Source: Acidovorax carolinensis
Lineage (GTDB): Bacteria; Pseudomonadota; Gammaproteobacteria; Burkholderiales; Burkholderiaceae_C
Length of the DNA: 64,000 nucleotides
Direction: 5' to 3'
NCBI RefSeq assembly: GCF_002157145.1
Contig: NZ_CP021361.1
Coordinates: 1,736,001-1,800,000, forward strand
Shown here: piece after piece, positions 3,204 through 56,634 of the stretch
Position numbering within the stretch: the stretch's first letter is position 1
Layout: every line of letters starts with the position of its first letter
Program-made: the position numbers and the translations under genes
Notes under the pieces: model-generated
Seen by the model: the letters and a program-made list of their open reading frames with translations, nothing else
Databases searched by the model: none
What the model was told of the DNA's origin: nothing

Positions 3204-3264
3204 TTTGATCAAAAAGGCTTCCAGCGCTTGCTGAATAAGCGCGAGCAGCTTCGTTTTTAATAGC
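3204..3264 (+). repeat. Dispersed 55-bp element, copy 1
   Basis: Shared layout in reference orientation: CTC-like, AGCGCTT, about 8 variable bases, AAGCGC, AGCAGCT or AGTAGCT, then an A/T-rich tail ending AATAGC. Here the core reads CCAGCGCTTG...AATAAGCGCGAGCAGCTT. It fills the gyrA-serC gap. Confidence 0.75.
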
Positions 3265-3297
3265 GCTGGTAGCGCGCGGATCGTGCGATACGGGGGC

Positions 3298-6000
3298 TCA
3301 AGCGTCTGGCGAGTCCGGGGTGTCGGGCTCAGCGGTAGCACCACTGTCCGTGCCCGATCCGCCATCGGCTTGCTCGTCGGCCATGTTCGCATCGTTTTCG
3401 ACAATGCGTTGCAGGCCACTGAGCTTGGAGCCTTCGTCCAGCGCAATCAGCGTCACGCCCTGCGTGGCACGGCCCAGTTCGCGGATCTCGCTCACGCGGG
3501 TGCGCACCAGCACACCCTTGTCGGTGATCAGCATGATCTCGTCGTCGGCATGCACCAGCGTGGCGGCCACGACCTTGCCGTTGCGCTCGCTTTGCTGGAT
3601 GGCGATCATGCCCTTGGTGCCTCGGCCATGGCGGGTGTATTCGGTGATGCTGGTGCGCTTGCCGTAGCCGTTTTCGGTGGCGGTCAACACGCTGGTGCGT
3701 GTTGACTCGGAGCCCTCACGGTTTGCGTTTTCGTCTTCGGCCACCAGCATGCAGATCACGCTCTGGCCTTCTTCCAGCATCATCCCGCGCACGCCACGGG
3801 CCTGGCGGCCCAGGGGGCGCACGTCGTTTTCGTCAAAGCGCACGGCCTTGCCGCCGTCGCTGAACAACATCACGTCGTGCTGGCCATCGGTGAGGGCCGC
3901 GCCGATCAGGTAGTCGCCATCATCGAGGTTGACGGCAATGATGCCGCCCTTGCGCGGGTTGCTGAATTCGTCGAGCGCCGTCTTCTTCACGGTGCCCATG
4001 CTGGTGGCCATGAATACGTAGCGGTCGGCCGGGAAGGTGCGCATGTCGCCCGTGAGCGCCAGGACCACATTGATCTTTTCGCCTTCCTGCAGCGGGAACA
4101 TGTTGACGATGGGGCGGCCGCGCGAGCCGCGCGAACCCGCCGGCACTTCCCAGACCTTGAGCCAGTACAGGCGGCCACGGTTGGAGAAGCACAGGATGTA
4201 GTCGTGCGTATTGGCGATGAAGAGCTGGTCGATCCAATCGTCTTCCTTGGTGGCCGTGGCCTGCTTGCCGCGACCACCGCGCTTTTGGGCGCGGTATTCA
4301 CTCAAGGGTTGACTCTTGATGTAGCCAGTGTGGGACAGCGTCACCACCATGTCGGTGGGCGTGATCAGGTCTTCGGTGGAGAGGTCCTGGGCGCTGTATT
4401 CCACCACGCTACGGCGTGCGCCAAGCTTGTGCTGGCCGAATTCCTGCTTGATGGCGGTAAGTTCGTCGCCAATGATGACCGATACACGCTCGGGCTTGGC
4501 CAAAATATCGAGCAGGTCTTCGATGACTGCCATGACTTCCTTGTACTCGGCCACGATCTTGTCCTGCTCCAGCCCAGTTAGGCGCTGCAGGCGCATCTGC
4601 AGGATTTCCTGGGCCTGCGTGTCCGACAGGCGGTACAGGCCGTCCTGGCCCATGCCGAATTCCTTTTCCAGGCCTTCGGGGCGGTAGTCGTCAGCGTTGA
4701 TCACGCCGCCGTCCGCACGAGTGCGCGTGAGCATTTCGCGCACCAGCTTGCTGTCCCAGGAGCGCGTCATGAGTTCAGCCTTGGCTACGGGCGGCGTGGG
4801 CGATTCGCGGATGATGCGGATGAAATCGTCAATGTTTCCGAGGGCGACGGCCAGGCCTTCGAGCACATGGCCGCGGTCGCGCGCCTTGCGCAGTTCGAAC
4901 ACGGTGCGGCGGGTCACCACTTCGCGGCGGTGCTGCAGGAAGACGCTGATCAGGTCCTTCAGGGTGCACAGGCGGGGCTGACCGTCGATCAGCGCCACCA
5001 TGTTCATGCCGAAGGTATCCTGCAACTGCGTCTGCTTGTACAGGTTGTTCAGCACCACCTCGGGCACTTCGCCGCGCTTGAGTTCGATCACCAGGCGCAT
5101 GCCGGATTTGTCGGACTCGTCCTGGATGTGACTGATCCCCTCGATCTTCTTTTCGTGCACCAGCTCGGCCATGCGCTCCTGCAGCGTCTTCTTGTTGACC
5201 TGGTAGGGGAGCTCGTCCACGATGATCGATTGGCGCTGGCCGCGGTCGATGTCCTCGAAGTGGCAGCGCGCGCGCATCACCACCTTGCCTCGACCGGTGC
5301 GGTAGCCGTCCTTCACGCCATTGATGCCGTAGATGATGCCGGCCGTTGGGAAGTCGGGCGCCGGAATGATCTCCATCAACTCGTCGATGGTGGTTTCCGG
5401 GTTGCGCAGCATGTGCAGGCAGGCATCCACCACTTCGTTGAGGTTGTGGGGCGGAATGTTGGTGGCCATGCCCACCGCAATACCGGCCGAGCCATTGACC
5501 AGCAGATTAGGGAGCTTGCTGGGCAGTACCAAGGGTTCTTTTTCACTGCCGTCGTAATTGGGGCCGAAATCGACAGTTTCCTTGTCAATATCGCCGAGCA
5601 TCTCGTGCGCGATTTTGGCCAGGCGGATTTCGGTATATCGCATGGCGGCGGCGCTGTCGCCGTCCACCGAACCGAAGTTGCCCTGGCCATCCACCAGCAT
5701 GTGGCGCAGTGAGAAATCTTGTGCCATGCGCACGATGGTGTCGTACACCGCCGAGTCGCCGTGTGGGTGGTATTTACCGATCACGTCGCCCACAATGCGG
5801 GCCGACTTCTTATATGGACGGTTCCAGTCGTTGTTGAGCTCGTGCATGGCAAAGAGCACGCGCCGGTGGACGGGCTTGAGGCCATCCCGCGCATCGGGCA
5901 ATGCCCGTCCCACGATCACGCTCATGGCGTAGTCGAGATAGCTGCGCCGCATCTCCTCTTCAAGGCTGATGGGCAGGGTTTCTTTGGCAAACTGGGTCAT
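3298..6000 (-). CDS. gyrA: DNA gyrase subunit A
   Basis: The 900-aa breakage-reunion subunit of DNA gyrase works with GyrB to introduce negative supercoils. Taking the ATG at 6000 ([10 protein letters not shown]) gives E. coli-like numbering: catalytic Tyr122 in AAMRYTE, Ser83 and Asp87 in [10 protein letters not shown]. The quinolone-determining positions are therefore wild type. The GyrA-box is QKRGGRG, followed by C-terminal beta-pinwheel repeats and an acidic tail rich in D, E and G. A TTG 21 bases upstream would add MPSPPPP and is less likely. It is divergent from ompA. The frame is intact and the length is usual for betaproteobacteria. Confidence 0.97.
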
Positions 6001-6224
6001 TGGGGGCGGCGGTGACGGCAAAGGAGAGTCATTTTAGGGGCAAGTGCATGTAGCGGCTTAGCAACATATCGTGGCAATTGCGCTTTTGTCCTACGGAACC
6101 TTAACCGCCGTACCCTCACTTGCCCTGTTACGTATGGCACAATCGATTGAACGTTTTTGGTGATGGTCACCGATGACGTCCTGATTCGCAGCGCGGCTGC
6201 GGCTTTTTCCCCAAGAGGAGAACC
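6001..6224. promoter_or_regulatory. Divergent promoter region gyrA / ompA
   Basis: This 224-base gap separates the two divergent starts and must hold both promoters. It has AT-rich patches, including TAAAAT just upstream of gyrA on the minus strand and GGCACAATCG on the plus strand before ompA. I could not pair either with a convincing -35 box. Confidence 0.5.
6187..6208 (+). promoter_or_regulatory. Hairpin plus T-run in the ompA leader
   Basis: A perfect 6-bp stem (CGCAGC / GCTGCG, loop GCG) is followed by GCTTTTT and lies 5-10 bases before the ompA ribosome site AAGAGGAG. It looks like a small intrinsic terminator or an mRNA-stability hairpin. Function is inferred from shape only. Confidence 0.4.
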
Positions 6225-6866
6225 ATGAAGAAACTGAACAAAGTGGCGATGTTGTTTGCCTCCGCAGCGCTCGCAACCGCCGCTGGCGCACAAACCGTCG
6301 ACAACTGGAAAAATGGCTCCAACGAGCTGGTCTGGAAGAACGGCACCAACGAATACTGCTGGCGCGATGCCAACTGGACGCCCGCAACGGCTGCTCCAGG
6401 CTGCGACGGCGCTCTGGCTGCTGCCCCAGCTGCTGCTCCAGCGCCTGCTGCTGCTCCAGCGCCTGCCGCCGCTGCACCTGCTCCCGCTCCAGCACCTGCT
6501 GTGGCCACCAAGGTGACCTACGCTGCCGACGCCTTCTTCGACTTCGATAAGTCTGTTCTGAAGCCCGAAGGCAAGGCAAAGCTGGATGATCTGGTTTCCA
6601 AGGTCAAGGACATCAACCTGGAAGTCATCATCGCTGTGGGTCACACCGACTCCGTCGGCTCCGATGCCTACAACCAGAAGCTGTCGGTACGTCGTTCCGA
6701 AGCCGTGAAGGCCTATCTGGTCTCCAAGGGTATCGAAAAGAACCGCGTGTACACCGAAGGCAAGGGCGAAAAGCAGCCTGTCGCTGATAACAAGACCAAA
6801 GAAGGTCGCGCAAAGAACCGCCGCGTCGAAATCGAAGTGGTCGGTACCCGCGCTGCTGCCAAGTAA
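6225..6866 (+). CDS. ompA: OmpA family outer-membrane / peptidoglycan-binding protein
   Basis: A 213-aa exported protein. The signal peptide MKKLNKVAMLFASAALATAAGA ends near residue 22. A short region with two cysteines follows, then a long Ala/Pro linker (about 65-93), then an OmpA_C domain (about 95-205) with TDSVGSDAYNQKLSVRR and the NRRVEIEV end. The C-terminal domain should bind diaminopimelate in peptidoglycan. There is no eight-strand barrel domain, so it is the short OmpA-like type common in Burkholderiales. A strong ribosome site (AAGAGGAG) precedes the ATG, and AAG, AAC and CTG codons suggest high expression. A terminator follows. Confidence 0.93.
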   Translation: MKKLNKVAMLFASAALATAAGAQTVDNWKNGSNELVWKNGTNEYCWRDANWTPATAAPGCDGALAAAPAAAPAPAAAPAPAAAAPAPAPAPAVATKVTYAADAFFDFDKSVLKPEGKAKLDDLVSKVKDINLEVIIAVGHTDSVGSDAYNQKLSVRRSEAVKAYLVSKGIEKNRVYTEGKGEKQPVADNKTKEGRAKNRRVEIEVVGTRAAAK

Positions 6867-6882
6867 TCCTCGGATTGCTCAC

Positions 6883-6911
6883 AAAAAGGGCCCCGGTTTC
6901 GGGCCTTTTTT
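6883..6911 (+). terminator. Rho-independent terminator of ompA
   Basis: AAAAAGGGCCC and GGGCCTTTTTT form a GC stem with a short loop followed by a T-run, 16 bases after the ompA stop codon. Confidence 0.85.
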
Positions 6912-6947
6912 ACGTCTGTACTTTTCTCGTCTGGGGCTTGATGGACA

Positions 6948-7667: not shown

Positions 7668-7675
7668 GGCGCTGC

Positions 7676-8341: not shown

Positions 8342-8353
8342 AATAGCTGTCTT

Positions 8354-8740
8354 GGGGCTGTCCTGGTTTCGACGTGGGTTCGGAATCGGTGTGGTGCATG
8401 TCGAGCTTGAGTCACGCTCGTAAATCTCGATTTAAAAAACTAACTGCAAACGACGAACGTTTCGCACTCGCTGCTTAATTGCCAGTGAGCCTTGCAACAG
8501 TTGGCCGATGGGCTGGGCAAGGGGGTTCTGAGTAATCAGCGCCTCCCGGCTGCAAGGATAATTACATGGGCTGGCCTTGATCCGGGTACCTTGGATTGGG
8601 GTGAGAAAATAGGGTGCTGGCGGCCGGTGTAGCGTGCGACTGCGCGACAACGGTGGCGAGACTTAAATCAGATCGCTAAACATGTAGATCTGCCCGATGA
8701 AGGCTTGCGGACGCGGGTTCAATTCCCGCCAGCTCCACCA
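8354..8740 (+). ncRNA. ssrA: Transfer-messenger RNA (tmRNA)
   Basis: The 387-nt gene begins GGGGCTGTCCTGGTTTCGAC and ends with a T-arm (GGTTCAATTCC) and CAGCTCCACCA. The two ends pair as a tRNA-like acceptor stem. The tag frame runs from GCA at 8446 to TAA at 8478 and encodes ANDERFALAA, the tag I recall from betaproteobacteria. It rescues stalled ribosomes with SmpB. A terminator follows at once. Confidence 0.98.
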
Positions 8741-8747
8741 TAATGTG

Positions 8748-22043: not shown

Positions 22044-22411
22044 GACGCCATTGCGCAGTACAAGCCGGCCGGTGCACCGGGCCAATGGGGTGTTTGGGCA
22101 TTGGCAGCAGGCGAGACGAACTGCAGGCCAAGCCGCGGCGATTGCGCCCGGTATCAGAAGAAATATGGGTCAAATCGACCTCAAGCGCTTGTTCTATAAG
22201 CGCCAATAGCTATTAAATAAATAGCAATCATGTTTATGAATGCACCGGCATGGCCATGCTGGTTGGTGCGCAGGGCACCCGCAGGCAACGATATCCAGTG
22301 CTTGCGCCAGGCCGCACAAGCCCGACTTCCCGCGCAGGTGCTAGGATGGCGCGCGCCTTCCAGCCTGGAGTGCTGCGCCAATCATGCAGACAGCGGGGGG
22401 AGCCGCATACG
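22044..22411. other. Intergenic region with dispersed repeat copy 2
   Basis: These 368 bases lie between the BON gene and the next small gene. Apart from the repeat at 22169-22226, I see no gene; the open frames here have neither good starts nor family resemblance. Confidence 0.5.
22169..22226 (+). repeat. Dispersed 55-bp element, copy 2
   Basis: Closest to my consensus: GACCTCAAGCGCTTG, variable bases, TATAAGCGCCAATAGCTATT, then an A/T tail ending AATAGC. Confidence 0.85.
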
Positions 22412-25573: not shown

Positions 25574-25650
25574 CGGAGCGTAGCGCAGCCTGGTAGCGCA
25601 TCTGCTTTGGGAGCAGAGGGTCGCGAGTTCGAATCCCGCCGCTCCGACCA
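25574..25650 (+). tRNA. tRNA-Pro (anticodon UGG)
   Basis: The 77-nt gene has an acceptor stem CGGAGCG / CGCTCCG with encoded ACCA. The anticodon arm TCTGC / GCAGA holds loop TTTGGGA, giving anticodon TGG. The T-arm reads GAGTTCGAATC. A TAGAAT hexamer 10 bases upstream is a plausible -10 box. A strong terminator follows. Confidence 0.97.
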
Positions 25651-28397: not shown

Positions 28398-28811
28398 TCA
28401 AGGCGATTCTGGTTCGAAATCGAGCGAGGCCGAATTCATGCAGTAGCGCAGGCCTGTCGGCGCCGGGCCATCTTCAAACACATGGCCCAGATGCGCCCCG
28501 CATTGTGCACACACGGTTTCAGTGCGCACCATGCCATGGCTGCGATCGACGATTTCGGTGATGGCGCCGGGCACTGCCTGCGAGAAGCTGGGCCAGCCGC
28601 AGCCGGCATCGAACTTGGTGACCGCATCAAACAACTTGGCACCGCAGCAGATGCAGTGGTAGCTGCCGTCGGCCCAGTGGGCTTCGTATTTGCCGGTGAA
28701 GGGGCGTTCGGTGGCGGCATGGCGCGTGACCTGCAAGGCCCCGGGCTCAGCGCCCTTGTCCTTGAGCAGCGCTTGCCATTCGGCGTCGGTTTTCTGGATG
28801 GGAAAGCTCAT
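28398..28811 (-). CDS. msrB: Peptide-methionine (R)-S-oxide reductase
   Basis: A 137-aa enzyme reducing methionine-R-sulfoxide in proteins. The zinc site is C53/C56 (CICC) and C101/C104 (CAQC). The catalytic residue is Cys124 in [10 protein letters not shown], and GCGWPSF is present. Its start overlaps the selO stop codon by four bases, so the two are translationally coupled. The protein is cytoplasmic, without a signal peptide. Confidence 0.96.
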
Positions 28812-30292
28812 GATGAACAGCTGATTTCGATGGAAGAAGCCCAGTCGGGCGGGAAGTCGGCCCAGGCGTCATGGCCGGGATGCTCGTCAAAAGGATGCTG
28901 CAGCAGGCGCTGCAGGGTTTGCAGTTCGGAGAAATCGCCTTGCTTCGCGGCCCGTATGGCCTGCTCACCCAGGTGATTGCGCAGCACGAACTTGGGATTG
29001 CTGCTCAGCATCAAATGTGCAGAAACCGCTTTATCGGTAAGCGCTAGTAGCTCTGAATAAGATAGCAACCATTGGTCCCAACCCGCCCGGTCGGCAAACA
29101 GGTCGCGCACGGGTTCGAAGTCGTTTTGCGCCACGGCGTGCGACAGGCGCCGCCAGAAGATGGTGTAGTCCACCCCGTTTTTTGCCAGCAGCAGCAAGAT
29201 GTGATCGATCAGTTCCGCATCGCCGGCACGCTGGGCAGTCAGGCCGAGCTTGGCGCGCATGCGGGCCATGAAGTCGTCGGAGAAAACGGTCTTGTACGAC
29301 ACGAGGGCCGCCTGGGCCTGCTCCTCGTCGCCGATCAGCGGCAGCAGTGCCTGGGCCAGGCAAAACAGGTTCCAGTACGCCACGTTGGGCTGGCGGTTGT
29401 AGGCATATCGGCCCTGGGTGTCGCTGTGGTTGCAGACATGGCCGGGCACAAAGGCGTCCAGAAACTGGAAGGGGCCATAGTCGATCGTCAGGCCCAGAAT
29501 GCTCATGTTGTCGGTGTTCATCACGCCGTGGCAAAAGCCCACGGCCTGCCAGTGCGCCATCAGCGTGGCGGTGCGCTCGCTCACGGCCTGCAGCAGGGCC
29601 GCGTAGGCGTTGCCACCAGGCTGCTCAGTGCTGCGGCAGGCCGGGTAATAGCGGTCGATCACATAGTCGGCCAGCAAGCGCAACTCGTTCACCTGGCCAC
29701 GGGCAGCGAAATGCTCGAAATGGCCGAAACGCACGAAGCTTTGCGCTACCCGGGTCACCACGGCGGCGCTTTCGATCTCTTCGCGGCGCACGGGGGCTGG
29801 CGACCCGGTGACGCACAAGGCCCGCGAGGTGGGGACGCCTAGCGCGTGCATGGCTTCACTGCACAGAAATTCGCGGATGCTCGAACGCAGCACGGCGCGC
29901 CCATCGCCCATACGCGAATACGGGGTGCGGCCGCTGCCTTTGAGCTGCACTTCCAGTCCGCCCGGGGTTTCACCCAGCAGGATGGCCCGCCCGTCGCCCA
30001 GCTGCCCGGCCCACACGCCAAACTGGTGGCCGCTGTAAACACTGGCCAGGGGGGTGCTGCCCGGCAAACGGGCATTGCCCGTAAAGACCTGCAGTGCCTC
30101 GTCAGACGCCATCCAGCCGGCATCCAGCGCCAGCAAATCCGCGACGTCGGTGCTGACGCCGATCCAGTGCGGCTGGGGCAGGGGGGTGGGCTGCAACGCG
30201 GTAAAGAATGCGGGCCCCAGGCTCGCGAATCCACCCTTCCCAGTCAGATCCAGAGGCGGGATGGCAGCAGTGCTGGCGGCAAGCGGGTTCAT
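28808..30292 (-). CDS. selO: Protein adenylyltransferase SelO (YdiU)
   Basis: A 494-aa pseudokinase-fold enzyme that transfers AMP to protein Ser, Thr or Tyr. [39 protein letters not shown] (Lys118) and [10 protein letters not shown] (Asp261) with IDYGPF match the family. The ATG at 30292 ([10 protein letters not shown]) gives the usual length; upstream in-frame ATGs add an odd Pro/Lys/His-rich stretch from a GC-rich intergenic block. Residues about 409-428 are encoded by a copy of the dispersed repeat, so this surface segment is probably not ancestral. It is the first gene of the selO-msrB-yciB-bolA-ppiC operon. Confidence 0.93.
29011..29067 (+). repeat. Dispersed 55-bp element, copy 4, inside selO
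   Basis: The plus strand reads ACCGCTTTATCGGTAAGCGC, then TAGTAGCTCTGAATAAGATAGC. The gene, on the other strand, translates it as about 19 residues ([18 protein letters not shown]) without a frame break. Confidence 0.75.
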
Positions 30293-30718
30293 CGCTGCAT
30301 TGTCTCGCAGCCGCGATGCCCCGGCGACCGCAGGGCCTTGCATGAGGGGGTGCTTTGGCGCCTCGTGGTCCAGCCTTTTCGTTGCGCCCTTCGGCTGGGG
30401 AGGTTGCATCGGCCTTCGGGGGCAGGCGGCATCTGTCTCGGCGGTGCAGCCAGCACACTCCGACCCGCAGGGAGGGTCGCCAGAGGGTAGGGAAGCCCTT
30501 GGCTCCTGTCAGGCGCGCGACACAGGTGGGTGCGTGGGGAAAAAACGCCGCAGACCGTCGCCCAGCCCGCAGTGCGCGCGCACGCTCGCATCCCGGCGGG
30601 TTGGCCATGCGTTCGGCGGCGGCCGACGGTCACTCGCCGGGCCGGGCCGCAAGACCGTTTCTTGCCCCCTGCCACGGTAGGATAAGAACTCCACCAACAC
30701 AATATTCAAGGAGCGCAC
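30293..30718. other. GC-rich block between selO and the acyl-CoA ligase
   Basis: These 426 bases are very GC-rich. Several frames stay open on both strands, with Arg/Pro/Ala-rich translations that do not match any family I know. Local hairpins are frequent. The last 50 bases turn AT-richer and include the AAGGAG ribosome site of the ligase. The block may itself be a lineage-specific repeat. Confidence 0.45.
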
Positions 30719-32516: not shown

Positions 32517-33749
32517 ATGAGATTTGCTATCAAAGCAGTAGCTGCATCCGTCATTCTGGCAAGCGCGGGTGGCGCCTTCGCCCAAAAGGGCGAGACCGTC
32601 AAGATCGCCTGGCTGGATCCCCTTTCGGGTCTCATGGCCGCAGTGGGAACGAACCAGCTCAAGAGCTTTCAGTTTCTGGCGGAAGAGTTCAACAAGAAGA
32701 ATGCAGCCGGCGTCAAATTCGAAATCATCGGCATCGACAACAAGCTGAGCCCTCAAGAGACCACCAGCGCACTGCGCTCGGCCATGGACCAGGGTGCCCG
32801 CTATGTGGTGCAGGGCAACGGCTCGGGCCCCGCACTGGCCATCATCGATGCGCTGGAAAAGCACAACGCCCGCAACCCCGGCAAGGAAGTGCTGTTCCTC
32901 AACTACGCCGCCGTGGACCCGGATCTGACCAACAGCAAATGCAGCTACTGGCATTTCCGTCTGGATGCCGACACCTCCATGAAGATGGAAGCGCTGACCA
33001 CCTACATGAAGGATCTTCCTGAAGTCAAGAAGGTCTACCTGATCAACCAGAACTATTCGCACGGCCACCAGGTTTCCAAGTTCGCCAAGGAAATGATGAA
33101 GCGCAAGCGCCCCGATGTGCAGTTTGTCGGCGACGACCTGCACCCGCTGGCGCAGGTGCGTGACTTCTCGCCCTACATCGCCAAGATCAAGGCCTCGGGT
33201 GCCGACAGCGTGATCACCGGCAACTGGGGCTCCGACCTGGCGCTGCTCATCAAGGCCGCCAACGATTCGGGCCTGAACAACGTCAATTTCTACACCTACT
33301 ACGGCTCCGTTACCGGCAGCCCCACCGCCATGGGCGCCGCTGCCGACGGCCGTGTGTACCAGGTGGCCTATGCCCACCTGAACCTGCCGGGCCCGCTGAA
33401 CCAGATCGTGGTGGACTACAAGAAGAAGTTCAACGACGACATGTACACCGGAGCCGTCTACCACGCCTTCGCCATGCTGTCCGAAGGCTTTGTCAAGGCC
33501 AAGTCAACCGATCCCGTCAAGGTGGCTTCCGTGCTCGAAGGCATGAAGTTCAAGAGCTTCAATGGCGAGGTCGAAATGCGCAAGACCGACCACCAGCTGC
33601 AGCAGGGGCTGTTCATCTCGAAGTGGGAAAAGGCCGGCGGCAAGTACCCGCTCGATTCCGAGAGCACTGGCTACACGTTCGTTCCAGTGAAGTACTACGA
33701 GCCCTATGTGGCCAGCACGCCCACCTCGTGCCAGATGAAGCGTCCGTAA
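32517..33749 (+). CDS. Branched-chain-type ABC transporter substrate-binding protein
   Basis: A 410-aa periplasmic binding protein of the LivK/Peripla_BP_6 type. The signal peptide MRFAIKAVAASVILASAGGAFA is cleaved before QKGETVKIAWLDPLSG. ATG at 32517 follows ACAGGAGAC; the frame is open upstream to 32466. It should deliver its ligand to LivHMGF encoded next. With a ligase, beta-oxidation enzyme and thiolase around it, the ligand may be a carboxylic or aromatic acid instead of an amino acid; that is inference from context. A terminator follows, allowing excess of this protein over the membrane parts. Confidence 0.9.
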   Translation: MRFAIKAVAASVILASAGGAFAQKGETVKIAWLDPLSGLMAAVGTNQLKSFQFLAEEFNKKNAAGVKFEIIGIDNKLSPQETTSALRSAMDQGARYVVQGNGSGPALAIIDALEKHNARNPGKEVLFLNYAAVDPDLTNSKCSYWHFRLDADTSMKMEALTTYMKDLPEVKKVYLINQNYSHGHQVSKFAKEMMKRKRPDVQFVGDDLHPLAQVRDFSPYIAKIKASGADSVITGNWGSDLALLIKAANDSGLNNVNFYTYYGSVTGSPTAMGAAADGRVYQVAYAHLNLPGPLNQIVVDYKKKFNDDMYTGAVYHAFAMLSEGFVKAKSTDPVKVASVLEGMKFKSFNGEVEMRKTDHQLQQGLFISKWEKAGGKYPLDSESTGYTFVPVKYYEPYVASTPTSCQMKRP

Positions 33750-36883: not shown

Positions 36884-36884
36884 C

Positions 36885-41179: not shown

Positions 41180-41217
41180 ACGCCCCGCGCAGACCAGAAG
41201 GTTTGCGCGGGGCGTTT
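41180..41217 (+). terminator. Probable terminator of the thiolase operon
   Basis: A 12-bp stem, ACGCCCCGCGCA / TGCGCGGGGCGT, with a 12-base loop; the T-run after it is short (three T). Confidence 0.65.
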
Positions 41218-41271
41218 GCTATATTGTTGATAGCTACTGGCGCTTTGTGGGTGAGCGCTGGAGGTCAAATA
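41218..41271 (-). repeat. Dispersed 55-bp element, copy 3
   Basis: Reading the minus strand: TTTGACCTCCAGCGCTCAC, variable bases, AAAGCGCCAGTAGCTATC and a tail ending ATATAGC. It abuts the thiolase terminator. Confidence 0.85.
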
Positions 41272-41535
41272 CTTTTTGCCAGTTCCTCGAATAATGAAAA
41301 TGGCTGCTTGATGCTTGGAGGGGCGGGTTGCCGGAGTGACTGCGCTCGGCCAGGAGCGAACTTTCGACGTGTCGGGATGGCCGACCGCTTCAGAGCCGAA
41401 CCGGACACAGGCGTATTCAATCCGCCTTCTCCCAACCGAGCATTGGAAGGTCAATAGTGAACCTGGAGAGGCCCGATTTTTCCGGATCAGTCAGTGCTTT
41501 ACTTTTCTCAGTGCGGAACTTGCCTTGTGTTCATC
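41272..41535. other. Left flank of the IS256-type element
   Basis: No gene is recognisable here. The final 28 bases (41508-41535), read leftward, are the original C-terminal codons and stop of the small gene now split by the insertion element. The stretch is AT-richer than the neighbouring fad genes. Confidence 0.5.
41528..41535. repeat. Target-site duplication, left copy (TGTTCATC)
   Basis: The eight bases TGTTCATC flank the element here and again at 42925-42932. Eight bases is the usual IS256-family duplication. Confidence 0.85.
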
Positions 41536-41564
41536 GAGCCTGTCAGAAACTTTGTGTGTGAGGC
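41536..41564 (+). repeat. IS256-type left inverted repeat
   Basis: The repeat has TGTCAGAAA at the outside and GTGTGTGAGGC at the inside. About 20 of 29 positions match the complement of the right end by eye. Confidence 0.85.
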
Positions 41565-41588
41565 ATAGCATGTCAACAAGGAGCATGA

Positions 41589-42854
41589 ATGCCACGCAAG
41601 ACGAAGACAACCGCTGCGGCGGACAAGGCGGCGCAGCCGCAATTCTCAGCCGAGCTGCTGGAGCAACTCATCCCCGGGCCGGTAACGCCGGCCGAGCTCG
41701 AAGGCATCTTCCAGCAGTTCAAGAAGTCGGTTCTTGAGCGCGCCCTGGGCGCCGAGATGAGCCATCATCTGGGCTACACGCCCGGCCAGGCCAAGCCCGA
41801 AGGGGCTGGCGCCAATCACCGCAACGGCAAGAGCGCCAAGACGGTGCTGACCGATGCGGGAGCGCTGCGCATCGACGTTCCCCGCGACCGCGAGGGCACT
41901 TTCGAGCCACAACTCATCGGCAAGCACGAACGGCGCTTCACCGGCTTCGATGACAAGATCATCGCCATGTACGCCCGGGGCATGACGGTGCGCGAGATCC
42001 AGGGCTTCCTGGCCGAGATGTACTCGGTGGACGTCTCGCCCGACCTCATCAGCAGTGTCACCGACGCCGTGATGAGCGAGGTCACGGCCTGGCAGACGCG
42101 CCCGCTGGAGGCGATGTACCCGGTGGTGTTCTTTGACGCGCTGCGGGTCAAGATCCGCGAGGATGGCGTGGTGCGCGCCAAGGCCGTGTACCTGGCGCTG
42201 GGTGTGCTGCCCGATGGCAGCCGCGACATCCTGGGCATCTGGATCGAGAACACCGAGGGTGCCAAGTTCTGGATGAAGGTGTTCAACGATCTGAAGACAC
42301 GCGGCGTCCATGACATCCTGATCGCCGTCACCGACGGGCTCAAGGGTATGCCAGAGGCGCTGGGCGCGGTGTTCCCGGCCACGACGCTGCAGACCTGCAT
42401 CGTGCACCTGATCCGCAATAGCCTGGACTTCGCAAGCTGGAAGGACCGCAAGAGCCTGGCGGCGGCCATCAAACCCATCTACACAGCAGTGAGCGCCGAA
42501 GCGGCCCAGACTGAGCTCGATGCGTTTGAAAAGGGGCCCTGGGGCCAGAAATTTCCCACGGTCGTGGGCGCCTGGCGCAGGGCCTGGGACAAGGTGATCC
42601 CATTCTTCGCCTTCCCGCCCGAGGTGCGACGCGTGATCTACACGACCAATGCGATTGAAAGCGTGAATGCGCGGCTGCGCAAGATCATCAAGACCAGAGG
42701 ACACTTCCCCAGCGACGATGCGGCCACCAAGCTGATCTGGCTGGCCCTGCGCAACATCACCGAGGACTGGGGGCGAGCAGCCAACCATTGGAAATCAGCG
42801 ATGAACCAGTTTGCAATCCTCTACGAAGAACGATTCATGAAACCGAGCACGTAA
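41589..42854 (+). CDS. IS256 family transposase
   Basis: A 421-aa mutator-type DDE transposase. The catalytic triad is Asp183 (VVFFDALRVKIRE), Asp249 (AVTDGLKGMPEA) and Glu357 (TTNAIESVNARLRK). The CIVHLIRNS motif (Cys270, His273) is typical. N-terminal residues 1-120 bind the terminal repeats (HRNGKSAKTVLTDAG). Ribosome site AAGGAG lies 6-11 bases before the ATG. Full length for the family and no breaks. Confidence 0.97.
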   Translation: MPRKTKTTAAADKAAQPQFSAELLEQLIPGPVTPAELEGIFQQFKKSVLERALGAEMSHHLGYTPGQAKPEGAGANHRNGKSAKTVLTDAGALRIDVPRDREGTFEPQLIGKHERRFTGFDDKIIAMYARGMTVREIQGFLAEMYSVDVSPDLISSVTDAVMSEVTAWQTRPLEAMYPVVFFDALRVKIREDGVVRAKAVYLALGVLPDGSRDILGIWIENTEGAKFWMKVFNDLKTRGVHDILIAVTDGLKGMPEALGAVFPATTLQTCIVHLIRNSLDFASWKDRKSLAAAIKPIYTAVSAEAAQTELDAFEKGPWGQKFPTVVGAWRRAWDKVIPFFAFPPEVRRVIYTTNAIESVNARLRKIIKTRGHFPSDDAATKLIWLALRNITEDWGRAANHWKSAMNQFAILYEERFMKPST

Positions 42855-42895
42855 GATATCCAACCAGCTTCACGAAATCGGTGAAGGTTCAATGA

Positions 42896-42924
42896 GCCTC
42901 ACACACGGAAATTCGGACACGCCC
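42896..42924 (-). repeat. IS256-type right inverted repeat
   Basis: GCCTCACACAC at the inner side and TTCGGACACGCCC at the outer end. It supplies the last codons and the stop of the truncated small gene read leftward. Confidence 0.85.
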
Positions 42925-43105
42925 TGTTCATCGTGCGCACATCTTTCGGCTGAGAAGCACGCAACATCCACTTTTCGAACAATTCTTCATTTTGCTTGTG
43001 CTTGATGATTTCAGCTTGTAGCTCTCGCACCAGATCGTCATCAGAACCATAACGAAGTTGAAATTTATTGAACAGTCTTTCGACCCGTGCCGATTGCTTG
43101 ATCAT
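42899..43105 (-). pseudogene. Small 68-aa protein with IS-derived C-terminus
   Basis: I do not know the family. The first 60 residues (MIKQSARVERLFNKFQLRYG...) are charged and helical, rich in Lys, Glu and Gln, and preceded by a good ribosome site (GAGGA). After MN the frame enters the right repeat of the insertion element and ends RACPNFRV. Removing the element with one duplication gives a 66-aa original ending TRQVPH, with its stop at 41508-41510. Only the last six residues were exchanged, so the protein may still work. Codons are more AT-rich than those of the surrounding fad genes, suggesting foreign origin. Confidence 0.6.
42925..42932. repeat. Target-site duplication, right copy (TGTTCATC)
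   Basis: Identical to 41528-41535. The match extends by one more base (G) on both sides of the element by chance or by end choice. Confidence 0.85.
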
Positions 43106-43672
43106 GGAGTCCTCATCTGGGTGTTGGATGCGTGGTTTTCATTGTCACGTCTCAGACACTTGTGTCAACCTAAACCATCGGGCCTCAAGCTGATTTAGCT
43201 ATGGCGCTGATCGAAAAGCCTGTTGCCCCAAGGAAGTGATTTTGGCCAATCGCCTCTACGGCCTGTCGAATGCGTCTCGTCGACCGATGATTAGTTGGTC
43301 AGTAAAACCAGCAAATTGACTTGCCCGATAGCAGGTGCACTCGACAAACTACTTGCGCTGCACAAGCGAGGGTTGCACGTCGGACCCGAGTGTCAGCAGC
43401 GGGTCGATTCCAGCCAGTCGCAACCAAATTCAGTCTTGGTTGCTGCGATTTGCTTCAATAACCATAGCTGGCAGCGCTTTTCCCATAAGCGTCAAGGCCT
43501 ACAACGATACAGCCCCACACCGCGGCAGCCGTTTTCGCAGCCTCCCGCTCCAGCCTTCACCCGGCGCGCGAGCGTGCAACCCGTTGCGCGCGGCGGCACG
43601 CAGACTGCACCCCCTTCGCGGCGTCGCGCAGCTGACATGTTGGAACGGGTGCCCCCACCCATAATTTGCCGC
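43106..43672. other. Intergenic region upstream of the acyl-CoA dehydrogenase
   Basis: These 567 bases have no gene I can support. The left 340 bases have mixed composition with a GACAC-TT-GTGTC palindrome near 43160. The dispersed repeat copy lies at 43453-43504. From about 43505 the GC content rises to the level of the following gene. The long upstream extension of the dehydrogenase frame through this stretch has no family resemblance. Confidence 0.5.
43453..43504 (-). repeat. Dispersed 55-bp element, copy 9
   Basis: Minus strand: GGCCTTGACGCTTATGG, variable bases, AAAGCGCTGCCAGCTATGG. It has diverged but keeps both cores and their spacing. Confidence 0.65.
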
Positions 43673-45538
43673 ATGACGACCTCCCTGCGCTCCACCCTCG
43701 ATTTCCTGCTCTACGACTGGCTTCAAGCCGAAACGCTGAATGCGCGCGAGCGCTTTGCCGACCATTCGCGCGAGACGTTTGATGCCGTGCTTGACACCTG
43801 CGAGCGCATCGCGCGCGAGAAGTACGCGCCGTTCAACCGCACGGTGGACATGCAGGAGCCGCATTTCGACGGCGAGCGCGTCACGCTGCCGCAGGCCACC
43901 AAGGATGCGTATGACGCCTATGCCGCCTCGGGCATGCTCAGCGCGGCGCAGGATTACGACATTGGCGGCATGCAGCTGCCCTACACGGTGGACGCGGCGG
44001 CCAATGCCTTTTTTGCCGTGGCGTCGATCAGCATCAGCTCCAGCCTGCTGAGCGTGGGCAATGCCAACCTGCTCATGGTGCATGGCACCGATGTGCAGAA
44101 GAAGGTGTTTGCACTCAACGAGTTCTCGGGGCGCTTCTCGGGCACCATGTGCCTGAGTGAGCCGCAGGCGGGCTCATCGCTCAGCGATGTGGCCACGCGG
44201 GCAGTTCCTGACGAGGCCCCTTCGGTAGCCCCGGACGGCTCGGTGCCTTGGGATCAAGACCCGCTGGGTCCACGCTATCGCCTCACGGGCAACAAGATGT
44301 GGATTTCGTCGGGCGAGCACGATCTGTCGGAGAACATCGTCCACCTCGTGCTGGCCAAGATTCCGGGGCCCGACGGCAAGCTGGTGCCGGGCACGCGCGG
44401 TATTTCGCTGTTCATCGTGCCCAAGAAGCTGGTGGATACCGAGGGCCAGCTGACCGGCGTGCGCAATGATGTGGCGCTGGCGGGCCTGAACCACAAGCTG
44501 GGCTGGCGCGGCACCACCAACACGCTGCTCAACTTTGGCGAAGGCAAATACCCGGTGCAGGGCAGGGCGGGGGCTGTGGGCTACCTGGTGGGCCAGCCGG
44601 GCAAGGGCCTGGCGTGCATGTTCCACATGATGAACGAGGCGCGCATCGGCATCGGCATGGCGGCCACCATGCTGGGCCTGGCCGGCTATTACGCCAGCCT
44701 GGACTACGCCAAAAACCGCCCGCAGGGCCGGCTCATGGGGGCGAGTGGCAAGGACGCTGGCCAACCGCAGGTGCGCATCATCGAGCACGCCGACGTCAAG
44801 CGCATGCTGCTGGCGCAAAAGAGCTACGGCGAGGGTGCGCTGGCGCTCAACCTGTTCTGCGCCCGCCTGGTGGACGAGCAGCACACCGGCGTGTCCGAGG
44901 CCGCCGACGAGGCGCGCCTGCTGCTGGAAGTGCTGACCCCCATCGCCAAGAGCTGGCCCAGCGAGTTCTGCCTGGAGGCCAACTCGCTGGCCATCCAGAT
45001 CCACGGCGGCTACGGCTACACGCGCGACTTCCCCGTGGAGCAGTACTGGCGCGACAACCGCCTGAACATGATCCACGAGGGCACGCACGGCATCCAGGCG
45101 GCCGATCTGCTGGGCCGCAAGGTGCTGATGGAAAACGGCCGGGGCATGCAACTGCTGGCCGCGCGCATGCAGGCCACCATGGCGCAGGCCGCCGCCGTGC
45201 CTGAATTGGCGGCCTGTGCGGCGCAGCTGGGCGATGCCTTGCAGCAGGTGGGCGCCGCCACGCAAGCCGCCTGGGCCACGGGCAACCCGGCCGAGGCGCT
45301 GGCCAATGCCGTGCCCTACATGCAGGCCTTTGGCCACACCGTGCTGGCCTGGGTGTGGCTCGATGTGGCCTTGGCCACACTGCGTGTTGATGCTACGCTT
45401 TCAGTAGCTGCTAGCGCAGGAAGGATGGGCGCTGCACGCTATTTCTACCATTATGAGCTGCCGAAGATTGCGGCCTGGCTGAATGTGGTGAACGGCCGCG
45501 ATATGACCTGTGCCGCGCTCAGCGAAGAGGCGTTTTAG
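43673..45538 (+). CDS. Acyl-CoA dehydrogenase, large (about 620 aa) type
   Basis: A 621-aa FAD enzyme that introduces the alpha-beta double bond into acyl-CoA. It belongs to the long class with N-terminal and C-terminal additions (as in DmdC and some FadE-like proteins). CLSEPQAGSSLSDV, WISSGEHDL, MMNEARIGIGMAATMLG, IQIHGGYGYTRDFPVEQYWRDNRLNMIHEGTHGIQ (catalytic Glu region) are clear. ATG at 43673 is preferred (MTTSLRSTLDFLLYDW). Residues about 573-591 are encoded by a copy of the dispersed repeat. It most likely belongs with the ligase-liv-fad cluster upstream, now separated by the mobile insert. Confidence 0.93.
   Translation: MTTSLRSTLDFLLYDWLQAETLNARERFADHSRETFDAVLDTCERIAREKYAPFNRTVDMQEPHFDGERVTLPQATKDAYDAYAASGMLSAAQDYDIGGMQLPYTVDAAANAFFAVASISISSSLLSVGNANLLMVHGTDVQKKVFALNEFSGRFSGTMCLSEPQAGSSLSDVATRAVPDEAPSVAPDGSVPWDQDPLGPRYRLTGNKMWISSGEHDLSENIVHLVLAKIPGPDGKLVPGTRGISLFIVPKKLVDTEGQLTGVRNDVALAGLNHKLGWRGTTNTLLNFGEGKYPVQGRAGAVGYLVGQPGKGLACMFHMMNEARIGIGMAATMLGLAGYYASLDYAKNRPQGRLMGASGKDAGQPQVRIIEHADVKRMLLAQKSYGEGALALNLFCARLVDEQHTGVSEAADEARLLLEVLTPIAKSWPSEFCLEANSLAIQIHGGYGYTRDFPVEQYWRDNRLNMIHEGTHGIQAADLLGRKVLMENGRGMQLLAARMQATMAQAAAVPELAACAAQLGDALQQVGAATQAAWATGNPAEALANAVPYMQAFGHTVLAWVWLDVALATLRVDATLSVAASAGRMGAARYFYHYELPKIAAWLNVVNGRDMTCAALSEEAF
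45389..45444 (-). repeat. Dispersed 55-bp element, copy 7, inside the acyl-CoA dehydrogenase
   Basis: Minus strand: CAGCGCCCATCC, variable bases, TGCGCTAGCAGCTACTG, ending GTAGCATC. The gene reads through it in frame (DATLSVAASAGRMGAA). Confidence 0.65.
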
Positions 45539-46720: not shown

Positions 46721-46806
46721 GGGCGCCTCGGGTCACTGAATCCTGGATCACACCATACAACACCGTGTGGTGCACTTTGGTGCTGACCGCCCCGAGCTCA
46801 GATGCT

Positions 46807-46860
46807 TTGAAACTTATAGCTGTCAGCGCTTGCTGGTTGGGCGCTACACGCTGTTTTTGC
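46807..46860 (-). repeat. Dispersed 55-bp element, copy 8
   Basis: Minus strand: AACAGCGTGTAGCGCCC, variable bases, CAAGCGCTGACAGCTATAAG. It lies between the vanZ-like gene and the PEP-CTERM gene. Confidence 0.75.
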
Positions 46861-46953
46861 CCTGATGAATTGCCGCGGGTAGATGCCTGGCTGACATGGG
46901 TGCACACGCCCGGCGATGCTCTCCGCGCGCCGGGCGGGCGGTCACGTAACCGG

Positions 46954-49428: not shown

Positions 49429-49473
49429 TGGGCGCTCCGGCACAAGAATGCACTGGAGTGGAGCCCCTTTTGA

Positions 49474-49532
49474 GCCAAATCGGGCTCTTGCGCAGGATGG
49501 ATAAGCGCAAGCAGCTATTAAAAAAGTAGTAA
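49474..49532 (+). repeat. Dispersed 55-bp element, copy 6
   Basis: GGGCTCTTGCGCAGGATGG, ATAAGCGCAAGCAGCTATT and an A-rich tail with AAGTAGTAAC. It ends just before the ribosome site of the next gene. Confidence 0.75.
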
Positions 49533-49545
49533 CAAGGAGTCTTCC

Positions 49546-50562
49546 ATGCCACGCAATCAACAAATCGTTCTCGACAACCGCCCCCAGGGCGAAGCCGTGG
49601 CCAGCAACTTCAAGCTGGTCGCCACCGACACGCCCGCGCTCCAGGATGGCGAGGTGCTGGTGCGCCACCACTACCTGAGCCTGGACCCCTACATGCGCGG
49701 CCGCATGAACGACAGCAAGAGCTATGCGGCCAGCCAGCCGCTGGGCGAGGTGATGATTGGCGGTACCGTGGGCGAGGTGGCCGAAAGCAAGAACGCCAAG
49801 TTCGCGGTGGGCGACAAGGTGGTGGGCATGGGCGGCTGGCAGGAATACAGCGTGGTCGATGGTAATGCCGTGGGCGCGCTGCGCAAGGTGGAAACCACCC
49901 ATGTGCCGCTGTCGCACTACCTGGGCGCCGTGGGCATGCCGGGCGTGACGGCCTGGTATGGCCTGGTGAAGATCATTGCGCCCAAGGCGGGCGACACCGT
50001 GGTGGTGAGCGCCGCCACCGGCGCCGTGGGCAGCGCCTTTGCCGCGCTGGCCAAGGCCCGCGGCTGCCGCGCGGTGGGCATTGCCGGTGGCACAGAGAAG
50101 TGCCGTTATGCGGTGGAAGAGCTGGGCTTTGACGCCTGCATCGACTACAAAGAGCACAGCGACGCGCGCGCCATGTCCAAAGCCCTCAAGGAAGCCTGCC
50201 CCAACGGCATCGACGGCTACTTCGAGAACGTGGGCGGCTGGATCATGGACGCCGTGATGCTGCGCATGAACGCCTTCAGCCGCATTGCCCTGTGCGGCAT
50301 GATCGCCGGCTACGATGGCGCGCCCCTGCCCATGGCCAACCCCGCGCTGATTCTCATCAACCGCATGAAGATCGAAGGCTTCATCGTCAGCGAGCACATG
50401 GAAGTGTGGCCCGAGGCCCTCAAAGAGCTGGGCACGCTGGTGGGCACCGGCAAGCTGCGCCCGCGCGAGACCATTGCGCAGGGCATTGCCGCTGCGCCCG
50501 AGGCCTTTCTGGGCCTGCTCAAAGGCAAGAATTTCGGCAAGCAATTGGTGAAACTGATCTGA
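49546..50562 (+). CDS. NADP-dependent oxidoreductase (MDR, CurA/leukotriene B4 dehydrogenase-like)
   Basis: A zinc-free medium-chain reductase of 338 aa. The N-terminal RNQQIVLDNRPQGEA and LSLDPYMRGRM are typical of the CurA/YncB group that reduces alpha,beta-unsaturated ketones. The NADP Rossmann motif is AATGAVGSAFAALAKARG (about 154-171), and YFENVGGWIMDAV follows. It ends two bases before the ElaA-like gene. AAGGAG is the ribosome site, directly after repeat copy 6. Confidence 0.92.
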   Translation: MPRNQQIVLDNRPQGEAVASNFKLVATDTPALQDGEVLVRHHYLSLDPYMRGRMNDSKSYAASQPLGEVMIGGTVGEVAESKNAKFAVGDKVVGMGGWQEYSVVDGNAVGALRKVETTHVPLSHYLGAVGMPGVTAWYGLVKIIAPKAGDTVVVSAATGAVGSAFAALAKARGCRAVGIAGGTEKCRYAVEELGFDACIDYKEHSDARAMSKALKEACPNGIDGYFENVGGWIMDAVMLRMNAFSRIALCGMIAGYDGAPLPMANPALILINRMKIEGFIVSEHMEVWPEALKELGTLVGTGKLRPRETIAQGIAAAPEAFLGLLKGKNFGKQLVKLI

Positions 50563-50564
50563 AC

Positions 50565-52925: not shown

Positions 52926-52980
52926 GCGGGCTAGCCAACCGGGGCACCAAGCTTGGCGCCGTGCAGTGGTGTCTGAACTG

Positions 52981-54402: not shown

Positions 54403-54800
54403 AAATCGAACGTCTCAGCGCGCGCGAGGGATTGATGTGATGACCACGGCGGTCCAGCGTGTGCTCTTCTGGCTTGCTCTTGGCTACGGAATGCTCCCGA
54501 CTTCTTCGGGCATGGCTAATTCCTGCACGCCCCCGTCCTGCAGCCAACTGCATCGCAATCGCTGGATGCCTGCGGGTGTTGGGCATAACGGACCTGGCGA
54601 TAGGGTTTGCCTATGAAGCCCGTATGACCACTCATGAACTTCCGCAGCAATCAGATGGTATTAATATGTAACTTACGAAACGTATGTAAATTGCCATTTT
54701 TGGGTGTAGATGTTTGTTGCTGTTTCTTTTAGTGTCGGTAACTAGAAATCGCGCGCAATAGTGCCCCTTCTTGGGGCTTGTGCACCAACGTGGAGGTTTT
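54403..54800. other. Intergenic region before the two-component genes, AT-rich half
   Basis: 398 bases. From about 54640 to 54770 the sequence is strikingly AT-rich for this genome and contains TACG-AAA-CGTA (arms complementary) near 54673-54683 with TTAC and GTAA at its edges. This is the probable promoter and operator region of the response-regulator gene. The left part may encode a short exported peptide. Confidence 0.5.
54440..54616 (+). CDS. Possible short exported peptide (58 aa)
   Basis: A small frame starting MTTAVQRVLFWLALGYGML with signal-peptide character, followed by a Cys/Pro/Ser-rich mature part (NSCTPPSCSQL). A weak GAGGG lies 12 bases upstream. No family resemblance, and it may be chance. 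Confidence 0.25.
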   Translation: MTTAVQRVLFWLALGYGMLPTSSGMANSCTPPSCSQLHRNRWMPAGVGHNGPGDRVCL

Positions 54801-55592
54801 ATGACCGTTATTCCCGCTGAGTCCCGCATGGCTGGGCTGTCTTCCAGGTCGCAGGACAGTGGTGCCGGTGAGGGATACCTGGGCGGGCAGGGCAGCCCGT
54901 CATCCATTTGGCCTGATTTCATGGTCGGTCAGACCGATCGCCCGGTGCGGGTGCTGCTTGTGGACGATGACGCGCACATCCGCCTGGTGATTGCGCAAGA
55001 GCTCATGGCGGATCCCCGCACCCTGGTGGTGGCGCAGGCGTCCAGTTTGCGCGAGGGGCGCAAGGCCATCAAGCAGCATGAGTTCGATGTGTTGCTGGTG
55101 GATTTGCATCTGGGTGACGGCGAGGGCTTCGAGCTGCTGGATTACCTCAAGACCGTGCGCCCGTCGGCCGAGGCCGTGGTGATTTCGGTCATGGAAAACG
55201 ACGACGAAGTGTTGCGCGCCTTCGAGTTGGGTGCCACTGGGTATCTCAGCAAGAACTCGTGGTTTGGCAACTATCCGCAGGCCGTGTTGCAGGTAGTGAA
55301 CGGCGGGGCGTCCATCACGCCGAACCTGGCGCGGCGCCTGCTGCAGCGGTTTGACAAGACCCATGCCGAGACCCCCAAGCGCCATGAGCCTGCCGAGGCC
55401 GACCGGTTGTCCGACCGCGAGAAGGAAGTGCTGCGCATGGTAGCTGGTGGTTACACCACTGCCGAAATTGCGTCCCGCATGGAGATCAGCAACATGACGG
55501 TGAATACGCACATTCGTAACATCTATCGCAAGCTGCAGGTGCGCACCCGTGCCCAGGCCGTGCGATTGGCATCGTTGCGGGGGCTGTTCTAG
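54801..55592 (+). CDS. NarL/LuxR-type response regulator
   Basis: A 263-aa regulator. Residues 1-47 form an unusual Ser/Gly-rich N-terminal extension. The receiver (about 49-165) has acidic DDD at 55-57, phosphoacceptor Asp101 (LLVDLHLGDG) and Lys151 (GYLSKNS). The LuxR-type helix-turn-helix is at about 197-260 (LSDREKEVLRMVAGG, NMTVNTHIRNIYRKL). ATG at 54801 follows GGAGG at 5 bases. A second in-frame ATG (residue 41) just before the receiver could give a shorter form. The kinase gene follows by 42 bases. Confidence 0.93.
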   Translation: MTVIPAESRMAGLSSRSQDSGAGEGYLGGQGSPSSIWPDFMVGQTDRPVRVLLVDDDAHIRLVIAQELMADPRTLVVAQASSLREGRKAIKQHEFDVLLVDLHLGDGEGFELLDYLKTVRPSAEAVVISVMENDDEVLRAFELGATGYLSKNSWFGNYPQAVLQVVNGGASITPNLARRLLQRFDKTHAETPKRHEPAEADRLSDREKEVLRMVAGGYTTAEIASRMEISNMTVNTHIRNIYRKLQVRTRAQAVRLASLRGLF

Positions 55593-55634
55593 GCGCATCC
55601 ATGGCTTACCGGGGCCGCTGCGCAATGTGCTTTC

Positions 55635-56516
55635 ATGTTTCGTAACCGTCCGCCCCATTTCGCCCTGGCCTGCCTCGCACTCTGTGTAGTGCAACTGGTC
55701 TTGAGCCTGCTGCTGGTTCGATATATTTGGGCCTTGAGTTCACCCGCCATGCAGTGGCTGACGGGCACGCTGATTGTTATCCAAACCTTGCTCGGATTGC
55801 TGATCTTGGTGCAGGTGCCGCGCGCCCTGCAATGGCGGCCACGGCGCAATCCCCGCCCCAGCGCAGAGTTGCAGGCCGAGCGCCAGCGCATCGCAAGGGA
55901 GCTGCACGACAACGTCGGCTCGCAGCTGGTCAGCACCATGGGCTTGCTGGACCCCAAGTTGCCCGCCCATTCGCAGGCTCTGCGTGCTTTGGAGCAGTGC
56001 CTGCTGGATCTTCGTCTGGTCGTGGATTCGATGGACAGCGCTACCGACTCGCTCGAAGATCGCCTGGCGCGCCTGCGCCACCGCATCCAGCCGGTGCTGG
56101 ACCGGCGCGGGATTCAGATGGCCTGGGATGTCAAAACCGCAGATGGCGTGGAGGCGCCATGCGCCGAGCGCGCCCAGCACATGGTCGCCATCGTGCAGGA
56201 ATCCTTGAGCAACGTGCTGCAACACGCTCAGGCCACGCAGGTGAAGGTGCGCCTGGACCATGACGCGGAGCAGGGTGCGTGGTGCCTGGAGGTCTGCGAC
56301 AACGGGCGTGGCCTGCCCGAAGTATCCTCGGCGTCGGGCGCCCGGCCCTCGGGCTTCGGCCTGGAAGGCATGCGCCGCCGTGCGCTGCAGATGGGCGGTG
56401 CTCTGGAGCTGATCCGGCCCGAGCAGGGGGGCACCTGCATACGCGTGGTGGTGCCGAACCAAGGCCAATGCGCGCGCGAGTACGCGCACGCTGTGCTGGA
56501 AAGCCAGAGCCCCTGA
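55635..56516 (+). CDS. Sensor histidine kinase, NarX/HisKA_3 type
   Basis: A 293-aa kinase, partner of the preceding regulator. Two membrane helices (about 9-33 and 40-62) are joined by only a few residues, so it has almost no periplasmic sensor and probably senses in or at the membrane. The HisKA_3 motif ERQRIARELHDNVGSQL carries phospho-His91. The ATPase part has QESLSNVLQHAQAT (N box), DNGRGLPE (G1) and GFGLEGMRRRA (G2). It lies downstream of its regulator instead of before it. Confidence 0.92.
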   Translation: MFRNRPPHFALACLALCVVQLVLSLLLVRYIWALSSPAMQWLTGTLIVIQTLLGLLILVQVPRALQWRPRRNPRPSAELQAERQRIARELHDNVGSQLVSTMGLLDPKLPAHSQALRALEQCLLDLRLVVDSMDSATDSLEDRLARLRHRIQPVLDRRGIQMAWDVKTADGVEAPCAERAQHMVAIVQESLSNVLQHAQATQVKVRLDHDAEQGAWCLEVCDNGRGLPEVSSASGARPSGFGLEGMRRRALQMGGALELIRPEQGGTCIRVVVPNQGQCAREYAHAVLESQSP

Positions 56517-56579
56517 AGGTGGACCTGCGCGCAGTGTGATGTGCCGCCTTTGCGCCGCAAGGTAGGGTGCAATTTGACG

Positions 56580-56634
56580 CCAAAATGGCCTCAACCGCTT
56601 TGCAGATAAGCGCTGACAGCTATCAAAAATGGAG
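56580..56634 (+). repeat. Dispersed 55-bp element, copy 5
   Basis: ATGGCCTCAACCGCTTTGC, AGATAAGCGCTGACAGCTATC, then AAAAATGGAG, between the kinase gene and tex. Confidence 0.85.

Follow-up and report, generated by a model that had tools for sequence, protein, structure and literature searches.

A dispersed 65-70-bp motif with clade-specific spelling in Acidovorax carolinensis and other Comamonadaceae, and its possible role as a DNA-exchange label

A 64-kb stretch of the single-contig 4.12 Mb genome of Acidovorax carolinensis (positions 1,736,001-1,800,000 of NZ_CP021361.1, hereafter the window) carries nine copies of a dispersed DNA element with A/T-tract arms and a centre whose spelling varies between clades. 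We interpret this element as a chromosome-wide recognition motif that would be read as duplex DNA and whose likeliest function would be that of a self-label for DNA exchange with a drifting dialect, an interpretation to which we give a probability of roughly 0.4. A first-pass annotation of the window had hesitated between a miniature inverted-repeat transposable element (MITE), an RNA element and a protein-binding site; comparison of the sequences favours the last of the three, in the form of a putative double-stranded protein-recognition site.

A sequence-only profile built from 28 copies of the A. carolinensis genome (R1; eight of them are window copies and one is the copy at 22169) retrieved from the window the same nine copies that the first-pass annotation had reported, with E-values between 1.4e-20 and 5.2e-9; the match ranked after them (E 0.005) overlaps one of them on the opposite strand. 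A matrix trained on 19 copies located outside the window also recovered 9/9, at 19 to 90 bits, and gave no match above 0 in 30 Markov shuffles of the window. In 13 outside stretches of 20 kb each, we detected 41 copies scoring at least 15 bits and none in the corresponding Markov shuffles; based on this sample of 260 kb, the genome holds about 650 copies. Profiling of the whole genome, as the annotation had proposed, returned at least 150 matches, every one with an E-value below 2e-11, rather than a number comparable to that of a shuffled control.

On the strand of the 22169 copy, the consensus reads ATTTTnaGTCAAAATnGGCC, then a 24-bp centre AGCGCTTATnngTAAAGCGCTAGC, then AGCTATnAAAAnnnTAGCAA. 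The element is about 65-70 bp long and not 55 bp as initially described, and has a left arm ATTTTnaGTCAAAATnGGCC that had been missed; the fixed spacing between the two cores holds. Its information content, calculated on 88 copies of the A. carolinensis genome, amounts to 68 bits, with 16 in the left arm, 25 in the centre and 26 in the right arm. About 62% of the information resides in the two arms (left GTCAAAAnGGCC, right AGCTATnAAAA..TAGCAA), whose consensus sequences are inverted only approximately. The GC content is 41%. Columns 19-21 alternate between AAA (24 copies, 13.4 expected) and TTT (20 copies, 4.3 expected), which points to shape readout of duplex DNA. The tetranucleotide GT[AG]G was found within columns 54-75 of 14 of the 88 copies, compared to 6.2 in shuffles, and not beside the palindrome. 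The smallest distance between two copies is 638 bp over 184 kb.

A pattern restricted to the arms matched 41 times in the A. carolinensis genome (G000; relatives are numbered from G001 onward, and g48 denotes a genus), 85 times in G010 and 52 times in G004, whereas the reversed control matched 0 times in each. Across the family, this pattern was found in 83 of 250 genomes and in 51 of 141 genera, against one match for the control. With the profile, matches were obtained in 47 of 150 family genomes, compared to 0 of 16 from other families of the order, in agreement with the first-pass annotation, which mentioned similar motifs in Comamonadaceae. The centre of the AGCGCTT..AAGCGCT type seen in A. 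carolinensis (AGCGCTTAT..AAGCGC) is spelled CGCGCGACCATCA.GC in G010, GCGCTAGTGCAATATGCGC in G004 and AGCCGGCGTATTTATTGCCTAAG in genus g48. Leave-one-out classification using the centre alone assigned 215 of 243 copies to the correct one of six groups (G000 37/41, G004 44/52, G010 81/85, g48 31/33, G254 12/16 and G016 10/16, with all listed copies taken for five groups and only 16 of 46 for G016), and the between-group minus within-group difference reached 0.135, compared to a maximum of 0.019 in 500 permutations. Copies of the same group nevertheless differ from each other at 37 to 47% of the centre positions, and therefore form a consensus cloud rather than the product of recent copying. One pair of near-identical copies lies 4 kb apart in G010.

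We analysed the localization of the element at orthologous sites by comparing flanks over stretches of 23 relatives and of the A. carolinensis sample. The site in selO (28996) and the 49460 site each carry a copy in 20 Acidovorax genomes including that of A. carolinensis, the former in an alignment without a gap and the latter in other genera as well. G002 has an apparent decayed copy, as judged by eye, at the 49460 site and a weak copy (24 bits) in the selO region, and G005 has no copy at the 49460 site. In another 80 loci, retrieved through the adjacent oxidoreductase in a scan that gave 45 matches in total versus 4 in shuffled sequence, some of those in AT-rich Limnohabitans looking spurious, the element is found just upstream in 14, with differing centres; ten of these 14 are not labelled Acidovorax, and half of those ten score weakly (24-29 bits). 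The arms stay at four orthologous sites and the centre tracks the clade, with the local spelling in 8 of 10 cases for clade X (G004, G018 and G023), 11 of 12 for clade Y (G010, G013, G014 and G020) and 34 of 41 for the others; the two clades were named by eye before scoring, from the dialects and from proteins resembling REP-associated tyrosine transposases (RAYT; REP, repetitive extragenic palindromic sequence), and are few, with shared inheritance within each. The misfits are G023, which has the common dialect at two sites, G020, which has it at one, and G003, G012, G015, G017 and G022, spelled as X or Y at seven.

We found no signature of insertion at these sites. Identified by its left flank, the 45388 site also holds a copy in G003 and lacks one in 17 other genomes, with zero length difference. 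Out of 1,476 orthologous comparisons, 371 have no copy above threshold; many of these are weak sites at the codon level, and absence is defined as a score below 18 bits. Zero is the commonest span difference among them (154/371), the -20 bin contains 113 and the -60 and -70 bins 11, with 61 of the 371 differing by more than 200 bases and lying outside the histogram; there is no peak at 65-70 bp in these 371 comparisons. The cases at -72/-73 come from one site and look like the loss of a larger intergenic part, and the comparisons yielded no clean empty site on which target duplications could be scored.

Inside genes, copies match the motif by the choice made among synonymous codons. Eight of 52 A. 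carolinensis copies lie wholly within genes, as called by a hexamer-based finder rather than by a standard annotator. In 18 of 18 tests, representing nine distinct sites in eight genomes (one G022 copy without a gene call was dropped), no match as good was obtained in 20,000 synonymous recodings each, and the excess over recodings ranged from 4.6 to 7.7 standard deviations, part of which reflects selection because the sites were picked by score. Chance is an unlikely origin for these matches because orthologues agree. Species without a match at the same sites encode a similar protein of the same length using GC-rich codons.

The element is mostly intergenic, as first described: seven of the nine window copies lie between genes, the exceptions being those at 29011 (selO) and 45389 (an acyl-CoA dehydrogenase gene). 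Occupied gaps of at least 60 bp number 39 of 153, namely 9 of 29 convergent, 25 of 95 tandem and 5 of 29 divergent gaps. Both orientations occur, also in line with the earlier description, with five window copies on the plus strand (3204, 22169, 29011, 49474 and 56580) and four on the minus strand (41213, 43448, 45388 and 46798), and the 150 genome-wide matches listed are split into 78 plus and 72 minus. A replication-oriented motif was considered and rejected, as no strand or replichore bias was detected among these 150 matches. In a single stretch of 200 kb of the A. carolinensis plasmid pACP4.1, we found no full-model copy and one weak arm-only match, compared to 32 expected at chromosomal density. 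A search of phages and plasmids with one 58-nt query, of low sensitivity, returned nothing.

How such sites could be maintained may be pictured as follows. A sequence-specific DNA-binding factor, whose existence we infer, would read the A/T-tract arms together with the clade-specific centre. Substitution or recombination over short tracts, and not insertion, would create the sites, maintain them and change their spelling in place. By analogy with the uptake sequences of Neisseriaceae and Pasteurellaceae, motif-bearing DNA would be preferentially taken up and recombined, a preference that would push the motif into permissive places and allow it to drift alongside its receptor. Both the drive behind the motif and its benefit are inferred here. 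Several observations weigh against this exchange-label interpretation. Copies are spaced no more evenly than expected from random placement in gaps (P = 0.11). The element holds 68 bits where 13.6 would be sufficient to locate 650 sites, and this excess, considered together with the 9-12 bp of known uptake sequences, suggests template copying at some stage. The span comparisons stem from few sites and are not independent. ComEC was not found in motif-rich G003 and G020, both fragmented assemblies, nor in motif-poor G005. It is present in 21 of the 24 genomes searched, motif-poor G002 among them. The presence of ComEC does not track the motif in this set, and we rejected it as a correlate.

The main rival, a possibility that we consider to be on the unlikely side, is a REP-like family tied to a RAYT-like gene whose product binds or processes the element and sets its dialect. 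Of 24 genomes, 23 carry such a gene, detected as Y1_Tnp (18 with a single match and five with two or three), and three of its proteins match NCBIfam REP_Tyr_transpos with E-values of 6e-21 to 4e-20 and 72-75 bits, close to and below the cut-off of 80. In 15 of 22 loci, which do not include G006, where the gene was not found in the stretch, or a second G005 gene, and of which that of G012 is interrupted by N, the element, at an arm score of 14 or more, adjoins the 3′ end of the RAYT-like gene and has the same orientation. These copies are mostly in the local dialect (X 3/3, Y 4/4, others 6/8, several matching poorly), and the element is not found there in motif-poor G002 and G005. On the contrary, it is also missing from this position in five motif-bearing genomes (G001, G003, G009, G015 and G022), and from the 5′ side in the fetched stretches of all 22 loci; G002 retains an open RAYT frame with almost no motif; and the core stem lacks the compensatory changes examined below. 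X and Y are clades of the RAYT tree too, which is confounded with the species tree. A 3′ copy at one locus is weak evidence because, in 4% of predicted genes (11/271), a copy on the same strand lies no more than 12 bp from the stop, and the link is at best suggestive. Improbable as we judge it, a RAYT-like enzyme could excise the element as a short single strand from the lagging-strand template, the strand then annealing to partly matching places and being copied in. The chromosome would then overwrite its own motif sites by a natural form of oligonucleotide recombineering, a picture of equally low likelihood that would explain dialect homogenisation, the lack of indels, the use of both strands and the codon-compatible genic copies. 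It is doubtful, and in our view somewhat more so than for the REP-like family, that the copies are sites of an ordinary nucleoid-organising or regulatory protein with drifted specificity, kept by site-by-site selection without any drive. This explanation is compatible with a duplex-type motif with A-tracts, with sites kept for a genus or longer and with the lack of polarity, but selection alone must then shift hundreds of sites concurrently, and do so in several lineages, the gap counts reveal no enrichment upstream of genes, and the information is far above need.

The remaining explanations were already disfavoured. That the element is a MITE or another inserted repeat with subfamilies amplified in each species is very improbable despite its very high copy number, the 68 bits that copies share and the near-identical G010 pair, as the same sites carry different centres, span differences do not peak at the length of the element, genic matches are in frame and synonymous, no full copy was found on 200 kb of plasmid, and the single low-sensitivity query matched no phage or plasmid. 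A family of structured RNAs or transcription terminators is hardly credible. The first-pass annotation had noted that each copy can fold and had called for a covariation test in the stem; the cores do pair in the dialect of A. carolinensis, whose centres outperform shuffled sequences in folding (mean z -2.0), but folding does not appear to be the key. Covariation was counted on 28 BLAST-chosen copies leaning to the right half and again on 88 copies, and the latter revealed none in the core pairs (columns 31-36 with 44-49, p 0.08 or more) and no compensatory signal at pairs 29-51 (p 0.25) and 30-50 (p 0.66), the exception being the outer pair 28-52 (p 0.005), with 27-53, 26-54 and 22-58 nominally just below 0.05. 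Folding is absent from the centres of g48 (z -0.08), the element has no Rfam match at gathering thresholds, and copies are found in both orientations in all gap types and within genes. Structured RNA, MITE and classical REP are unlikely because we found no insertion signature, little covariation and no full copy on the 200 kb of plasmid.

Among known systems, the DNA uptake sequences (DUS) of Neisseriaceae and the uptake signal sequences (USS) of Pasteurellaceae are the closest behavioural match to the element, and the role in uptake that we propose by this resemblance, based on dialects and evolution in place, is putative. Like the element, they are dispersed in hundreds to thousands of genic and intergenic copies. 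According to the available portion of PMC3630211, DUS dialects are uniform within species and track phylogeny, and in that of PMC2397512 the debate on the origin of DUS opposes recombination to point mutation and does not concern insertion of an element; the element studied here shares both species-uniform dialects (215/243 by centre) and a capacity to arise and persist without insertion, also in genes. Unlike these sequences of 9-12 bp, it is 65-70 bp long, holds 68 bits in conserved arms and a variable centre, is mostly intergenic and belongs to the family Comamonadaceae, where a receptor or uptake role is putative. The element also resembles REP/RAYT systems in being mostly extragenic, present in hundreds of copies, clade-specific and often located at the 3′ end of a RAYT-like gene. 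In the accessible part of Nunvar 2010 (PMC2817692), RAYT genes are flanked by two inverted REPs, and REP palindromes have complementary mutations; compared with that description, the element lacks a GT(A/G)G head adjoining a palindrome as well as complementary core-stem mutations, sits on one gene flank only and differs in dialect at orthologous sites. BRE, as portrayed in the text available from Hot 2011 (PMC3110155), is a dispersed repeat of Bordetella and some Comamonadaceae, about 90 bp long, with 69% GC in Bordetella, sometimes in tandem and in at most 29 copies, and the element, at 41% GC, 65-70 bp and about 650 copies, is set apart from it in length, base composition and copy number. 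The genus names that we looked for are absent from the available portions of two surveys of REPs and HUH enzymes (PMC3733652 and PMC6006769), and literature searches, whose coverage left out most subscription papers, returned no description of the element.

Should the element prove to be a label for uptake or exchange, it would represent a long modular signal in a large environmental family, with dialects setting the exchange partners; should it prove to be driven by RAYT, repeats would be rewritten where they stand instead of being inserted. In both cases, the presence of hundreds of sites, many of them with orthologues, makes genome-wide signal evolution directly testable, and such palindromes should not be taken for terminators or MITEs. 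G002 and G005, which belong to the same genus and have 0 and 3 profile matches, respectively, with RAYT-like genes retained, provide a natural comparison for finding the reader.

Table 1. Copies of the element in the window (window coordinates)
Feature	Position	Strand	Context
Element copy	3199..3266	+	Gap between minus-strand class V aminotransferase and gyrA genes
Element copy	22161..22230	+	Gap after BON-domain gene; joint best score genome-wide
Element copy	29003..29072	+	Within selO coding sequence (28808-30409, - strand)
Element copy	41213..41276	-	Downstream of thiolase gene, before IS256-family insertion
Element copy	43448..43510	-	Weakest copy: 19 bits with outside-trained matrix
Element copy	45388..45457	-	Within acyl-CoA dehydrogenase coding sequence (43637-45538)
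Element copy	46798..46869	-	In gap; 89 nt in common with 45405-45493
Element copy	49464..49535	+	Upstream of NADP-dependent oxidoreductase gene (49546-50562)
Element copy	56567..56636	+	Upstream of tex gene (56737-59184)

Two of the copies listed in Table 1, at 45389 and 46807, may not be independent because they are alike beyond the element: the 89 nt at 46817-46905 match, at 71%, those at 45405-45493, where the acyl-CoA dehydrogenase gene has its 3′ end, and may be the remnant of a duplicated gene end plus its element. A weak tenth candidate (14 bits) lies at 32518-32596 on the minus strand; at the orthologous place, the score is 31 in G003 and between -10 and 16 elsewhere, with a mostly unchanged length. 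Around the RAYT-like gene (L391 1160-1864 and relatives), a GGGGAC-type sequence upstream in most relatives and TGTCCC downstream resemble, by eye, the ends of an old insertion sequence unit. The only Rfam matches in the window are a tmRNA (8354-8740) and one tRNA (25574-25647). The IS256-family insertion sequence of the window (Transposase_mut, 41540-42925) has six further near-full-length copies in the genome with 98-100% identity, and two plasmids of A. carolinensis also carry copies, at 96%.

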